Under the pieces are notes generated by a model that saw only the letters and a list, made by a program, of their open reading frames with translations, did no database searches and was not told where the DNA came from. A DNA stretch of 64,000 bases, from NCBI GenBank assembly GCA_018262975.1, contig JADFDG010000003.1:186001-250000 (forward strand), in the 5' to 3' direction. Both the position numbers and the translations under genes were made by a program. The stretch comes from Gammaproteobacteria bacterium. Its GTDB lineage: Bacteria > Pseudomonadota > Gammaproteobacteria > Pseudomonadales > JADFDG01. Positions 7,026-64,000 of this stretch are shown piece after piece; position 1 is the stretch's first letter, and each line of letters opens with the position of its first letter.

Positions 7026-7083
7026 AGAGGGGGCCATGCCCCCGATATGGAAAAAAGCATCGGGGGCATGGCCCCCTCGCTAC
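7022..7083. repeat. GTAG-REP inverted pair (BIME)
   Basis: A forward unit at 7022-7045 and a reverse unit at 7060-7083 are separated by 14 nt, with GTAG at both outer ends; together they can fold into one 24-bp hairpin. The amidase stop (7023-7025) and the minus-strand methyltransferase stop (7080-7082) both use the TAG of the two GTAG ends. The inverted pair therefore closes two convergent genes exactly. Confidence 0.9.
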
Positions 7084-24635: not shown

Positions 24636-24725
24636 GTAGAGAGGGGGCCATGCCCCCGACCCGCCCTTCGTAGAGAGGGGGCCATGCCCCCGATAGGGCG
24701 GTCGGGGGCATGGCCCCCTCTCTAC
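24636..24725. repeat. GTAG-REP triple (forward, forward, reverse)
   Basis: Units lie at 24636-24659, 24670-24693 (forward) and 24702-24725 (reverse), with spacers of 10 and 8 nt, between mucD and lepA. The ATG of the reverse unit is in frame with lepA, so the open frame runs 34 codons upstream of the true start as MAPSLHTEQ and on; this is not coding. Confidence 0.9.
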
Positions 24726-53745: not shown

Positions 53746-54726
53746 ATGTCGTCGCCGCCGTACAAGCCCGATATCGCGGTCGTGCTCGTCAATCTCGGTA
53801 CGCCGGAGGCGCCCACGCCGTCCGCCGTGCGTCGCTACCTGCGCGAGTTCCTGTCCGACCGTCGCGTGGTGGAGGCACCGCGCCTGGTCTGGTGGTTCGT
53901 GTTGAACTGCATCGTGCTGCTCACCCGCCCGCGACGGGTGGCGAAGCTCTACGCATCCATCTGGACGCCGCAGGGTTCGCCGCTGGCCGTCCATACGCGC
54001 GCGCTGGCCGACAAGGTACAGGCGCAGCTCGCTGATCCGCGCATCCGCGTGCACGCGGCCATGACCTATGGCGAGCCGGCGTTGTCCTCGCTGCTGTGGC
54101 GCCTGGAGACGGAGGGCGTGAACCGCGTGCTGGTGCTGCCGCTTTATCCACAGTACTCGGCAACGACCACCGGTGCGGTTGTGGATATCGTCGCGCGCTA
54201 CCTGCTGGCCACCCGCCGTGCGCCCGACCTGCGCATCGTGCGCGACTACTGCGATCGCCCCGCCTATCTCGACGCCATCGCCGATTCCATCCGCGCGCAC
54301 GCACCGCTCGCGGCCGACGAACGGCTGGTTTTTTCCTTCCACGGCATTCCGCAGTCGTATGCCGACAAGGGCGATCCGTACCCCGAATGCTGCGCGGCGA
54401 CGGCGCGCGGCATTGCCGATCGTCTCGGTGGCAGCGCCTGGGAAATGACGTTCCAGTCCCGTTTCGGCAGTCAGCCCTGGCTGCAGCCGTACCTCGACGA
54501 GCGCCTCGCGGCACTGCCGAAGGAGGGGGTGAAAGCGGTGCGGGTGGTCTGCCCGGGGTTCGCCGCCGACTGCCTGGAGACCCTCGAGGAGGTCGCTGAA
54601 GAGAACCGCGAGGGGTTCCTGCATGCCGGCGGTGAACGGTATGCCTACGTGCCCGCGCTGAACGATTCGCCGGCCCACGTGGCACTCGTCAGCGACCTGG
54701 TGCGCGAACACGCCGCCGGTTGGTGA
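53746..54726 (+). CDS. hemH: Ferrochelatase
   Basis: The 326-residue enzyme inserts Fe2+ into protoporphyrin IX, the last step of heme synthesis. Family blocks are LVNLGTPEAPTPSAVRRYL at the N-terminus, YGSPL-type TPQGSPLAVHT, LPLYPQYSATTTGAV, the catalytic histidine in FSFHGIPQSY near residue 199, and CPGFAADCLETLEE. Length is typical (about 320-340). Its neighbour on the left is the ccm group, so heme production and cytochrome c assembly genes lie close. A strong hairpin follows. Confidence 0.95.
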   Translation: MSSPPYKPDIAVVLVNLGTPEAPTPSAVRRYLREFLSDRRVVEAPRLVWWFVLNCIVLLTRPRRVAKLYASIWTPQGSPLAVHTRALADKVQAQLADPRIRVHAAMTYGEPALSSLLWRLETEGVNRVLVLPLYPQYSATTTGAVVDIVARYLLATRRAPDLRIVRDYCDRPAYLDAIADSIRAHAPLAADERLVFSFHGIPQSYADKGDPYPECCAATARGIADRLGGSAWEMTFQSRFGSQPWLQPYLDERLAALPKEGVKAVRVVCPGFAADCLETLEEVAEENREGFLHAGGERYAYVPALNDSPAHVALVSDLVREHAAGW

Positions 54727-54907: not shown

Positions 54908-54935
54908 TTGCACTGGTTTTTTTTTGTGCTATTTT
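54908..54935 (+). promoter_or_regulatory. Sigma-70-type promoter of the histone-like gene
   Basis: TTGCAC (54908-54913) and TATTTT (54930-54935) are separated by 16 nt that include a run of nine T. The local sequence is far more AT-rich than anything nearby, consistent with a strong promoter. Confidence 0.55.
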
Positions 54936-54991
54936 CCGGATCGACGTCACGTCAATGGCGTCATTACCGCGGTAGCTTAGGAGAAACGAAA

Positions 54992-55660
54992 ATGGCTAAA
55001 GCCAAGAAGAAAGTGGCCCGCAAGGCCGCCCCGAAGAAAGCCAAGGTCAACGCTGCTGTTGTAGCCAAGACCGCTGGTAAGGAAGTTGCTGCTGCCTCCG
55101 CCAAGCTCAAGGCTGCGAAAGCTGCCCTGAAAGCTGCGAAGGCCGCTGCCAAGAAAGCCCGCAAGGCCAAGAGCGGCGTTGCCGAAGCGAAAGCCAAGGT
55201 GTCTGCTGCCACGGCTGACGTGAAAGCCGCCAAGACCGGCGTGACCAAGGCCAAGAAGTCGGCCAAGGCCGCTGCTGCCAAGGCCAAGAAAGCTGCTCGC
55301 GCTGCTGCTCGCAAGGCGAAGATCGCCGAGCGCAAGGCCGCTGCCAAAGCCAAGAAAGCCGCCAAGCGCGCTGCTGCCAAGGCCAAGAAAGCTGCCAAGA
55401 AAGCCGCTGCCAAGCAGAAAGCTGCTGAGCGCAAGGCTGCCCTGAAGGCCAAGAAAGCCGCCGCCAAGGCCGCTGCCAAGGCCAAGAAGGAAGCCAAGAA
55501 GGCCAAGAAAGCCGCTCCGAAGAAAGGCGCTGCCAAAAAGGCCGCTGCCAAGAAGCCGGCTGCCAAGAAAGTAGCGAAGAAGGCTGCCAAGAAGCCGGCC
55601 CGCAAGGCCAAGGCTGTCAAGAAGGCTGCCAAGAAGCCGGCGCGCAAGGCGAAGAAGTAA
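54992..55660 (+). CDS. Lys/Ala-rich histone H1-like DNA-binding protein
   Basis: The 222-residue protein is made almost only of Ala and Lys, with some Arg, Pro and Val, arranged as imperfect repeats such as AAKAKKAAKK and KKPARKAK. It should be an extended, strongly basic helix that binds DNA without sequence preference. It resembles eukaryotic H1 tails, chlamydial Hc2 and Pseudomonas AlgP, and also Lys/Ala-rich nucleoid proteins of other proteobacteria. An excellent AGGAG site precedes the ATG at 54992. It has its own promoter and terminator. GCT and AAA codons are used more than in neighbouring genes. Repeat number is likely to vary between strains. Confidence 0.88.
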   Translation: MAKAKKKVARKAAPKKAKVNAAVVAKTAGKEVAAASAKLKAAKAALKAAKAAAKKARKAKSGVAEAKAKVSAATADVKAAKTGVTKAKKSAKAAAAKAKKAARAAARKAKIAERKAAAKAKKAAKRAAAKAKKAAKKAAAKQKAAERKAALKAKKAAAKAAAKAKKEAKKAKKAAPKKGAAKKAAAKKPAAKKVAKKAAKKPARKAKAVKKAAKKPARKAKK

Positions 55661-60550: not shown

Positions 60551-61519
60551 TCAGAGGCTCTTCGCGAAGCGCGCTTTCGCGGCGTCGTATTCGCGCTTGA
60601 GTTGCGCGACCACTTCCGCGGCCGGCTTCACGTCGTGGATCGAGCCCACGCCCTGGCCGGCGCCCCAGATGTCCTTCCAGGCCTTGGCCGAGGTGTTGCC
60701 GCCGCTGCCGAAGTTCATGGTCGACTTGTCGGCCGACGGCAGGTTGTCCGGGTCCATGCCGGCGGCGCGGATCGACGGCGCCAGGTAGTTGCCGTGCACG
60801 CCGGTGAACAGCGACGAGTAGACGATGTCCTTTGCCGCGGCGTCCACCAGGCCCTGCTTGTATTCCGGCGTGGCGTTGGCCTCGGCGGTGGCGATGAAAC
60901 GCGTGCCGATGTAGGCGAGGTCGGCGCCCATCGCCAGCGCGCCGGCGATCGACGCGCCGTTGGCGATCGAGCCGGACAGCGCGACGGGGCCGTCCCAGAA
61001 TTCACGCACTTCACTCACCAGCGCGAACGGGCTGAGCGTGCCCGCGTGGCCGCCGGCGCCGGCGCAGACCAGGATCAGGCCGTCCACGCCCTCGCTGATG
61101 GCTTTCTTCGCGTGGCGGATGTTGATCACGTCGTGCAGCACGATGCCGCCCCAGCCGTGCACCGCGTCGACCACGATCGCCGGCGCGCGCAGGCTGGTGA
61201 TGACGATCGGCACCTTGTGCTTCGCGCAGATCTGCAGGTCTTCCTCGAGGCGGTTGTTGCTGGTGTGGATGATCAGGTTGACCGCGTAGGGCGCCACTTT
61301 CGCGCCGGGGTTGGCGGCCTGGTAGTCGGCCAGTTCGGTCTCGATGCGCGTCAGCCACTCGTCGAGCACGTGCGCCGGGCGCGCGTTGAGCGAGGGGAAC
61401 GAGCCGACGATGCCGGCCTTGCACTGGGCGATCACCAGCTCCGGGCCGGAGACGATGAACAGCGGGGAAGCGATCACGGGCAGCGACAGGCGGCCTTCGA
61501 GAACGGCGGGGATCGGCAT
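60551..61519 (-). CDS. Nitronate monooxygenase / 2-nitropropane dioxygenase family protein
   Basis: The 322-residue FMN-dependent TIM-barrel protein begins MPIPAVLEGRLSLPVIASPLF and has VCAGAGGHAGTLSPFALV and the later GADLAYIGTRFIAT, the FMN phosphate-binding block. Family members oxidise alkyl nitronates; many relatives act as enoyl reductases (FabK) or are uncharacterised. With no fatty acid genes adjacent, I keep the broad family name. The start is ATG 61519. Convergent with rsmJ, from which it is separated by a truncated REP. Confidence 0.82.
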   Translation of the reverse strand: MPIPAVLEGRLSLPVIASPLFIVSGPELVIAQCKAGIVGSFPSLNARPAHVLDEWLTRIETELADYQAANPGAKVAPYAVNLIIHTSNNRLEEDLQICAKHKVPIVITSLRAPAIVVDAVHGWGGIVLHDVINIRHAKKAISEGVDGLILVCAGAGGHAGTLSPFALVSEVREFWDGPVALSGSIANGASIAGALAMGADLAYIGTRFIATAEANATPEYKQGLVDAAAKDIVYSSLFTGVHGNYLAPSIRAAGMDPDNLPSADKSTMNFGSGGNTSAKAWKDIWGAGQGVGSIHDVKPAAEVVAQLKREYDAAKARFAKSL

Positions 61520-61626: not shown

Positions 61627-61687
61627 GTAGAGAGGGGGCCATGCCCCCGACCGCTTTTGTTCATCGGGGGCATGGCCCCCTCGCTAC
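61627..61687. repeat. GTAG-REP inverted pair (BIME)
   Basis: A forward unit (61627-61650) and reverse unit (61664-61687) with a 13-nt spacer lie in the 207-nt divergent gap between the monooxygenase and the split-barrel genes. The ends are GTAGAGAG and GTAGCGAG. A TAGAAT follows at 61707-61712 and may be a -10 element for the + strand genes. Confidence 0.9.
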
Positions 61688-61726: not shown

Positions 61727-62242
61727 ATGGACTCGTGGACAACGATGGATCGCCAGCCCCCCGTGCCGCTCGACGACGAGACGGCCCGTTTCCTCGCTTC
61801 CGGCGAGTCGATCACCCTCGGCTCGCGCGACGTACGTTGCGTGCCGTCGCTGATCAAGGCGGCCGGCTGCCGCGTGGACGCCGCCCTGCGCCGCGTGCGG
61901 GTGTTCGTCGATCGCCGCCAGGCGCGCCAGTTGCTCGCTGACATCGCCGCCACCCGCGCGGTCGCGCTGGTGGTGTCGCGCCCGTCCACGCACCACACGC
62001 TGCAGGTGAAGGGCAACGATGCGGTGGTCGAACCGCTGCGCGACGGGGATGCGGAGGTTGCCGCCGCGCACCGCCTGGCCTTCGCGCGCGAACTGGTACC
62101 ACTGGGCTATCGCCGCGACTGGACGCTGGCCATCCACGAGTTCCCGGTGGAGGAACTGGTGGCGGTGGCGTTCACCGTCGATGCGACCTATGCGCAGACG
62201 CCGGGCCCCGGCGCCGGTGCGCGCCTCGAGGCGCCGCGATGA
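61727..62242 (+). CDS. Small protein, probable FMN-binding split-barrel (PPOX-like)
   Basis: I recognise this 171-residue protein only by pattern. LDDETARFLASGESITLGSRDV resembles the opening of pyridoxamine-phosphate-oxidase-like proteins, and RRVRVFVDRRQARQLLADIAATRAVALVVSRPSTHHTLQVKG fits their strand-helix-strand core (given as a region, about residues 55-95). The next gene is also of this type, and the two overlap by 4 nt (ATGA), so they likely work together. Two starts, ATG 61727 and ATG 61745, are possible. The cofactor and substrate are unproven. Confidence 0.6.
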   Translation: MDSWTTMDRQPPVPLDDETARFLASGESITLGSRDVRCVPSLIKAAGCRVDAALRRVRVFVDRRQARQLLADIAATRAVALVVSRPSTHHTLQVKGNDAVVEPLRDGDAEVAAAHRLAFARELVPLGYRRDWTLAIHEFPVEELVAVAFTVDATYAQTPGPGAGARLEAPR

Positions 62243-63579
62243 AGCCCTCGCTGGATGCGCTGCGCGCCTGCTTCGAGGGCGCGGTGCCGTCGATGCTCGC
62301 CACCTGCGACGTCAACGGCGTGCCCAACGTCACCTACGTGTCGCAGGTGCACTACGTCGATCCGTCGCACGTGGCGCTCAGCTTCCAGTTCTTCAACAAG
62401 ACCCGCGAGAACATCCTCGCCAACCCGCAGGCCACCGTGTTGCTGCTGCACCCGGAAACGGCGCGCTGCTACCGCCTGGCGCTGCTGTACCGGCGCACCG
62501 AGCCTGAGGGCCCGCTGTTCGAGGCGATGAAGGCCAAGCTCGCCGGCATCGCCTCGCACTCGGGCATGACCGGCGTGTTCCGCCTGCTCGGCGCCGACGT
62601 CTACCAGGTGCTCGACATCGAGGCGGTGGAAGGCGCCGACGTGCCGCCACCGCCGTCGCCGCGCAGCCGGCTGGCGTCGTTGCGTGCGCTGGTACCGGCG
62701 GTGAACGGCGCCACCGATGTTGCTTCTCTGCTGGAGCGCACGCTGGACGGTTTGGGCGAACAGTTCGGCATCACCCACGCCATGGTGCTGTTCGCCGACC
62801 GGGCGCGCAGCAGCCTGTACACGGTGGCCAGCCGCGGCTATCCGCAATCGGGCATCGGTTCGGAAGTGCCGATCGGCCGCGGCATCATCGGCGTGGCCGC
62901 GCAGTACCGCACGCCCATCCGCATCGCCCACGCGGCGGCGGAATACTCCTACGGGCGCGCGGTGCGCGAGCACATCGAGGCCAGCGAACTGGCGTCGCTG
63001 CTGGAAACCGCGATTCCCTTCCCGGGGCTGGCCGAGCCGAACAGCCAGTTGTCGGTGCCGATCATCGCGGCCGGGCAGTTGCGCGGCGTGCTGCACGTGG
63101 AGAGCCCGGAGGCGCAGCGCTTCAGTTGGGAAGACGAGGACGCGCTGGTGACGCTGGCGGCGCTGGTGGGCGAGGCCTCGCTGGCGCTGCAGCAGGCCGC
63201 CGAGTGCCATGGCGAGGAAGCGGCTGGCGAGCCGGTGCGCGCGGTGCCGCCCGGCGCACCGTTGCTGGTGCGCCATTTCGCTGCCAACCACAGCGTGTTC
63301 CTGGGCGACGATTACCTGATCAAGGGCGTGGCGGGCGCGATTTTCTGGCGGCTGGTGAATGCCTGGGTCAACGAGCAGCGCAGCGAATTCACCAACCGTG
63401 AACTGCGCCTGGACCGCTCGCTGAACCTGCCCGACATCGACGACAACCTCGAGGCCCGCTTGATCCTGTTGCAGCGGCGCCTGGCCGAGCGCCAGGCGCC
63501 GGTGACGATCGAGAAGGCCGGGCGTGGCCGCTTCAGGTTGTCGGTGCGCCGGCCGTTGCTGCTGCAGGACGCGGAGTGA
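62239..63579 (+). CDS. PPOX-like split-barrel domain fused to GAF and a C-terminal domain
   Basis: The 446-residue protein has three parts. Residues 1-140 form a flavin-binding split-barrel of the pyridoxamine-phosphate-oxidase type (PSMLATCDVNGVPNVTYVSQ, FFNKTRENILANPQATVLL). Residues about 150-315 are a GAF domain (SLLERTLDGLGEQFGITHAM, VPIGRGIIGVAAQYR, SVPIIAAGQLRGVLHVESPE). Residues about 340-446 form a basic C-terminal domain (FLGDDYLIKGVAGAIFWRLV, FTNRELRLDRSL, LEARLILLQRRLAER) that looks like a winged helix. It may be a flavin- or ligand-responsive regulator. Its 3' end overlaps the convergent oxidase-like gene by 47 nt. Confidence 0.75.
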   Translation: MKPSLDALRACFEGAVPSMLATCDVNGVPNVTYVSQVHYVDPSHVALSFQFFNKTRENILANPQATVLLLHPETARCYRLALLYRRTEPEGPLFEAMKAKLAGIASHSGMTGVFRLLGADVYQVLDIEAVEGADVPPPPSPRSRLASLRALVPAVNGATDVASLLERTLDGLGEQFGITHAMVLFADRARSSLYTVASRGYPQSGIGSEVPIGRGIIGVAAQYRTPIRIAHAAAEYSYGRAVREHIEASELASLLETAIPFPGLAEPNSQLSVPIIAAGQLRGVLHVESPEAQRFSWEDEDALVTLAALVGEASLALQQAAECHGEEAAGEPVRAVPPGAPLLVRHFAANHSVFLGDDYLIKGVAGAIFWRLVNAWVNEQRSEFTNRELRLDRSLNLPDIDDNLEARLILLQRRLAERQAPVTIEKAGRGRFRLSVRRPLLLQDAE

Positions 63580-63958
63580 TCGCGATCGGCAGCGCGTTGC
63601 GCCAGATGTTTAGCGCGAACAAGCCGATCGATGCCATCAGTACCAGCGACGCCATGCCCACCACCGGTTCCATGCCGGCGTTGCCGGAGAGCATCAGCGC
63701 CAGCGCCAGCATCATCACCGGCAACGCCGCGTTGTAGACGCGGAAGTGCCAGCTGGCCAGGCGGCTGGCCGCCGCTGCCGGGAAGTGGTGGTAGAGCATG
63801 CCGGTGAGCGCCATGGTCACCCAGCCGAGCAGGTTCAGGTGCGCATGCACCGGCGACAACTGGAAGCGGTGGGTCGCGCCCATCCAGCAGCCCAGTGCCA
63901 CGGCGATGCAGAAGTAGACGAGCGAAAGCTGGATCCAGCGCAGGGCATTCGTTTGCAT
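63533..63958 (-). CDS. Small membrane protein related to heme-copper oxidase/NorB subunit I
   Basis: The 141-residue protein has about four membrane helices and the segment FQLSPVHAHLNLLGWVTMALTG followed by YHHFPAAA, which resembles the histidine-bearing helices of heme-copper oxidase or nitric oxide reductase subunit I. It is far too short (subunit I has more than 450 residues), so it is not a complete oxidase. Comparable short proteins occur in proteobacteria with no defined function. The histidines could bind heme. A purine-rich GGAGGAAA ribosome site precedes ATG 63958. Its 3' end overlaps the PPOX-GAF gene. Confidence 0.7.
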   Translation of the reverse strand: MQTNALRWIQLSLVYFCIAVALGCWMGATHRFQLSPVHAHLNLLGWVTMALTGMLYHHFPAAAASRLASWHFRVYNAALPVMMLALALMLSGNAGMEPVVGMASLVLMASIGLFALNIWRNALPIAITPRPAAATAGAPTT

Positions 63959-64000
63959 GGTGTGTTTCCTCCGGGTGATGGCGATGGATAGTCAGGGCAT

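Follow-up and report, generated by a model that had tools for sequence, protein, structure and literature searches.

In this study, we used profile searches, structure models and a genome-wide motif search to follow up three neighboring genes, A, B and C, at the end of a 64,000-nucleotide stretch of DNA (the window), and the results suggest that A and B probably form a dedicated one-component sensor-regulator. B would bind a 44-bp operator and most likely activate an operon encoding a hemerythrin, a cytochrome c or a mini-HCO, a small membrane protein that resembles oxidase subunit I around its HxH helix. That B is the protein which binds the operator is suggested jointly by linkage, by a predicted fold and by the co-occurrence of the two across genomes. 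The sequence-only reading, which had proposed a sensing locus made of A, B and C, is partly supported: its domain assignments and the idea of a sensing locus hold up and the neighborhood is strongly conserved, but C is no longer at its center. The hemerythrin partner and the operator, the latter being the strongest evidence, both lie just outside the window, and positions beyond its end are given here as window equivalents.

An ORF check confirmed the proposed layout, with A (61727..62242, + strand, 171 aa) and B (62239..63579, + strand, 446 aa) sharing an ATGA, a 4-nt overlap of the end of A with the start of B through which the two appear to be translationally coupled, and with C (63533..63958, − strand, 141 aa) convergent with B, the 3′ ends of C and B overlapping by 47 nt. 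The small split-barrel fold that had been suggested for A holds up: 14 of 47 A family members match PNPOx_N in Pfam (best E value, 1.5e-5), the window's own A being without a Pfam match, and Foldseek matches its AlphaFold2 model, which has a pLDDT of 93.5, to PDB split barrels (E about 3e-6), namely, those of the PNPOx, HupZ and F420 types. By fold or profile match, A and the N terminus of B are thus both PNPOx-like split barrels. B had been read as a fusion of split barrel, GAF and winged helix, and the prediction of its structure, which the sequence-only reading had proposed as a check, gives this same order in a model with a mean pLDDT of 83.7. The split barrel (residues about 6-130) carries a PNPOx_N match (residues 6-81, E 9e-9) and the GAF domain (140-322) a GAF_2 match (158-313, E 4e-14), both above the Pfam cut-off, and both families are matched in all 50 B members scanned (E<=1). 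The GAF assignment rests on the fold as well as on the profile, with a match to 3trc at a Z score of 21.3 (rmsd 2.4, 163 aligned).

The C terminus of B (342-445) is predicted from the AlphaFold2 model to be an OmpR-type winged helix, which would make B a transcription regulator. DSSP on this model places strands at 342-347, 352-355 and 358-361, a helix at 363-379, a short strand at 383-385, helices at 386-391 and 404-417, and strands at 422-428 and 431-436, that is, the b-b-b-H-b-H-H-b-b order of OmpR/PhoB-type winged helices. Sequence comparison does not place B in this family: Trans_reg_C matches none of 50 B members in Pfam, PDB sequence profiles give no winged-helix match for B, and hhalign of the C terminus against Trans_reg_C yields a nonsignificant E value of 0.089 from an alignment of few sequences. 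Structure matches for the whole B model do not address the C-terminal fold, because GAF domains fill the list and hence no winged helix is listed. No His or Cys is invariant in the alignment of the B family. A metal or heme sensor residing in B alone is therefore unlikely, and a heme or Fe-S center in B itself is disfavored; the sensor would more likely be a flavin-type ligand bound by the split barrel or one that B holds jointly with A.

The sequence-only reading had also proposed examining whether the gene neighborhood is conserved. A scan of proteins from species genomes, from which the best 80 of 302 relatives were kept, gave 81 loci with the window included, and A lies directly 5′ of B in all of them by profile search; this conservation across 81 loci argues that the gene set is not due to chance. 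An apparent lack of A in 19 of the 81 loci was rejected as the product of over-long B ORFs. Of the proposed three genes, C occurs in 12/81 loci; the main partner is an HHE hemerythrin (58/81), with cytochrome c found in 17/81. The partner operon is mostly convergent on B, and C is one of three interchangeable outputs. Among the recurrent clusters read, neither denitrification nor regulator genes recur next to A-B.

C had been likened to subunit I of heme-copper oxidases and NO reductases because of its histidine pattern. Both motifs, HAHLN and YHHFP, are present in the window's C. Among the relatives compared, however, the invariant histidines are limited to H38 and H40, and those of YHHFP vary (YTQFP, YNFFP and YHYFP occur). 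The match to COX1 reaches 21.3 bits against a cut-off of 34.8 and is accompanied by a weak ccoN match and a DUF2871 match that is likewise below the Pfam cut-off. With COX1 below its cut-off and only two histidines conserved, C is not assigned to subunit I but resembles, on its sequence, one segment of that protein; of the membrane heme component suggested by the sequence-only reading, only this HxH pair is conserved. It is the predicted second gene of a hemerythrin operon targeted by B: the last 9 nt of the hemerythrin gene, at its stop end, lie at 63992..64000 (− strand), and the gene continues to window equivalent 64711 (L101:2993-3712, about 239 aa). Since it lies on the same strand as C and 33 nt away, the two look like one operon. 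The hemerythrin family has the six-ligand order H-HxxxE-H-HxxxE, with ligand residues invariant in 25 members, including the window genome's copy, and PF01814 is above the cut-off in one relative (E 1.3e-9), where it is the sole Pfam match; profile and invariant diiron ligands together identify the family as HHE hemerythrins. The window genome's own copy has no Pfam match at E<=0.1, so its assignment rests on alignment.

Upstream of the hemerythrin we found a conserved operator 44 bp long, in which a TTAGG-like 11-bp unit is directly repeated four times (consensus nnTTAaGaAnnnnTTAGGaattgCtTAggcAAtttTTAGcAaCG). In the window genome, the four repeats occupy window equivalents 64764-64807 (L101:3765-3808) and are followed by a −10 hexamer, GACAAT (64740-64745), and then by GGAGG and the ATG at L101:3712. 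A matrix trained on hemerythrin upstream regions only finds a site in 73/80 loci and in the window genome. A locus nearly always has a single site, and 988 kb of shuffled sequence yields none; the matrix also finds sites 5′ of cytochrome-only and mini-HCO-only operons, which were absent from the training. Among the seven loci without a matrix site, two look cut by contig ends (L032 and L074), two have weaker in-phase repeats (L042 and L053), one has its site elsewhere in the genome (L071), and two have no partner gene in the locus (L046 and L093). No matrix site is present 5′ of A-B in the Beta- and Gammaproteobacterial loci that would indicate autoregulation. Two further arrangements were seen at operator sites. 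In two Burkholderiales genomes, the operator lies 5′ of a shortened hemerythrin-like ORF (L057:7358-7687 and L083:7380-7940, both on the − strand), with a full-length hemerythrin that has no operator site about 3 kb away, possibly reflecting decay after duplication. At L024:7353-9313 and L069:7420-8930, the operator heads an operon for a GNAT-like acetyltransferase and a GFA/CENP-V-like protein (named by reading the sequence), with or without mini-HCO, which is a candidate further target.

Across genomes, the operator is nearly unique per genome and coupled to B. For this search, we used a sequence-only model of 56 sites from which the window genome's site had been left out and near-identical sites and promoters had been removed; its E values are rough, owing to a shortened calibration. 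At E<=1e-3, this model finds the operator in 35 of 39 B-carrying genomes, usually once, and the sole match in the window genome (C23:250765-250806, E 7.9e-5) lies closely 5′ of the hemerythrin gene. Five held-out B genomes that took no part in motif finding have exactly one site each (E<=2e-5), directly 5′ of a cytochrome c (four) or a hemerythrin (one). Pooling all B genomes, these five included, gives 40/44 with an operator at E<=1e-3, compared to 0/81 without B (0/39 from the same order and 0/42 from the same class, among the candidates scored). The four remaining B genomes include two without any site, and the best match in a B-less genome is a partial one with an E value of 0.0015. In many of the B-less genomes, a limited number of candidates was scored, so that weak sites may have been missed. 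Where second sites exist in trans, elsewhere in the genome, they precede a cytochrome c (L107, L127 and L131) or a hemerythrin (L108). The locus counts do not represent independent events, because the sequences are related.

The geometry of the target promoter bears on how B might act. In 57 of 61 nonredundant promoters, a TAnnnT hexamer starts exactly 18 nt past the operator, a spacing that puts the operator between about −74 and −31, with the last repeat falling on the −35 region, and the operator consensus contains no conserved TTGACA-like −35. Fixed phasing with no separate −35 is known for PhoB-type, activator-dependent promoters, and OmpR/PhoB regulators usually have operators made of phased 11-bp direct repeats such as these. 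The fixed distance between operator and −10 in promoters with no separate −35 argues for activation. An operator overlapping the −35 position would also block RNA polymerase, and A-B could accordingly be a repressor that covers this region and lets go on signal; we consider this unlikely, as a repressor site would tolerate variable spacing and a consensus with no TTGACA-like −35 is typical of activator-dependent promoters. It is more improbable still that the operator belongs to another regulator and that A-B assists the hemerythrin, cytochrome or mini-HCO as a chaperone or redox partner (a flavin reductase, for example). Such a role would suit the frequent enzymatic function of split barrels, the location of A-B beside redox proteins and the lack of sequence-profile support for the winged helix. 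However, the site is found in B genomes and, among the candidates scored, in none of the B-less ones, so that the distribution of the other regulator would have to match that of B exactly although its gene lies elsewhere. No other regulator recurs in the neighborhood, and B itself has a GAF domain together with a fold predicted to bind DNA. In the reading that we prefer, activation by A-B, the C-terminal OmpR-like winged helix of B would bind the operator, whose fourth repeat occupies the −35 region with constant spacing to the −10, and B would most likely activate in a PhoB-type manner. The target would be the convergent hemerythrin–mini-HCO operon in the window genome and hemerythrin, cytochrome c or mini-HCO in relatives.

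Computation establishes the gene set with its domains, the operator and how it is coupled to B across genomes, and the geometry of the promoter; we infer operator binding by B itself, activation rather than repression, the cofactor, the signal and the heterodimer. The signal would probably be sensed by the split barrels, through a flavin-type or heme-type ligand and perhaps in an A:B heterodimer, and be relayed via the GAF domain. The output proteins (hemerythrin, cytochrome and mini-HCO) suggest a respiratory gas or redox signal, and NO/nitrite or redox is a plausible one. A response specific to NO or nitrite, in which A-B senses either compound and the hemerythrin acts like YtfE, is possible but rather doubtful. 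The hemerythrin keeps the YtfE ligand order, and NirS or NirK occurs in 24/44 B genomes compared to 15/80 B-less genomes of the class (Fisher p 9e-5, with genome size and phylogeny uncontrolled). Yet NirS and NirK are both absent from the window genome and from 20 of the 44 B genomes, and H-HxxxE-H-HxxxE can equally be the ligand order of O2-reactive or iron-sensing HHE proteins. Boxes for FNR/DNR, NnrR, NorR and NsrR were sought 5′ of A, the hemerythrin and C, and none scored above shuffled sequence; the lack of FNR/DNR, NorR and NsrR boxes at the locus likewise speaks against this specificity. Going beyond the activator model, we put forward tentatively, as something we lean against at present, an obligate heterodimer of the A and B split barrels, with flavin or heme bound at the interface between them and direct sensing of NO/nitrite or redox state. 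This would make A-B the first transcription activator to combine split barrel, GAF and winged helix, its private operator having four repeats and its regulon consisting of one or two operons for a diiron hemerythrin, a cytochrome c or a minimal membrane protein with HxH.

The sequence-only reading knew of no described system of this makeup, and among the open-access papers searched we likewise found none that joins these domains or genes. An A-B regulator that drives hemerythrin, cytochrome c or mini-HCO from a four-repeat operator of its own thus appears to be undescribed in open-access papers, although parts of the mechanism are familiar. It resembles OmpR/PhoB regulators (Trans_reg_C, PF00486) in the strand and helix order predicted for the C terminus of B and in tandem 11-bp direct repeats over the −35, but A-B has no receiver domain, its sensor is a split barrel plus GAF, there is no Pfam match, and four repeats serve one or two targets per genome. 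CodY from Firmicutes, a global regulator with a palindromic box, is not known to have a split barrel. What it shares with B, set beside it here by description only, is a GAF sensor joined to a winged helix in a one-component regulator (PMC5314169). DnrS from Thermus thermophilus is a cytoplasmic, oxygen-sensitive GAF transcription factor tied to respiration, with a proposed redox center, and works with DnrT on nitrate reductase genes; unlike for B, a split barrel and a hemerythrin target are not reported for it (PMC6282519). The target hemerythrin shares with YtfE/RIC the six-ligand order H-HxxxE-H-HxxxE described for YtfE (PMC9052748) but differs in its longer C-terminal part, its different promoter type and the absence of a match to ScdA_N, the N-terminal domain of YtfE/RIC with a Cys pair, which was not found in Pfam scans of hemerythrin relatives or of the window genome's copy, so that it is not assigned to YtfE/RIC. 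C shares with cbb3 subunit I (CcoN) the HxH helix segment and its weak COX1 and ccoN matches, both below cut-offs, but family members have only 123-141 aa and lack the other heme and copper ligands. If our reading is true, Beta-, Gamma- and Alphaproteobacteria have a further sensor-regulator architecture, a hemerythrin group and a minimal oxidase-like protein gain a regulatory link, and a 44-bp operator and its promoter are defined.

A sample of 274 genomes from the class contained 7 with B, and no full-length match was found among 56 same-order relatives, a sparse spread that fits loss and horizontal transfer. In the class sample, both strong members of the hemerythrin family occur with B (2/2), and one distant relative was found in the absence of B. 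Among the Alphaproteobacteria, plasmids of rhizobia and Azospirillum retain A-B. In Sinorhizobium sp. B11, A and a hemerythrin of the family point away from each other, and TTAGG repeats, 11 bp apart, lie between them. A divergent cupin gene is preceded by two TTAGG repeats on a related plasmid and in Rhizobium etli CFN 42; in R. etli, a cytochrome c of the partner family lies 3′ of B. One contig labeled Pedobacter (L022, JAVHYE010000032.1) carries the same gene order and a B that is 63% identical to the window's; it is probably a misbinned MAG contig.

Several other features of the window deserve mention. A REP-like dispersed palindrome with arms GGGGGCCATGCCCCC / GGGGGCATGGCCCCC is present in many copies, one of them closely 5′ of A (61627-61687, with 24-nt arms at 61627) and similar ones near 7029/7062, 10129/10158, 24643-24704, 37223/37253 and 53621/53693; half of such a palindrome lies at window equivalent 64827, closely 5′ of the hemerythrin operator. 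Divergent from A is a nitronate monooxygenase-family flavoprotein (60551-61519, − strand; PF03060, E 1.8e-23), a family that does not recur next to A-B in other loci. Farther away, and both named by reading the sequence, a ferrochelatase-like gene (53746-54726) shortly precedes a gene for a long, lysine/alanine-rich, histone H1-like protein (54908-55660, + strand).
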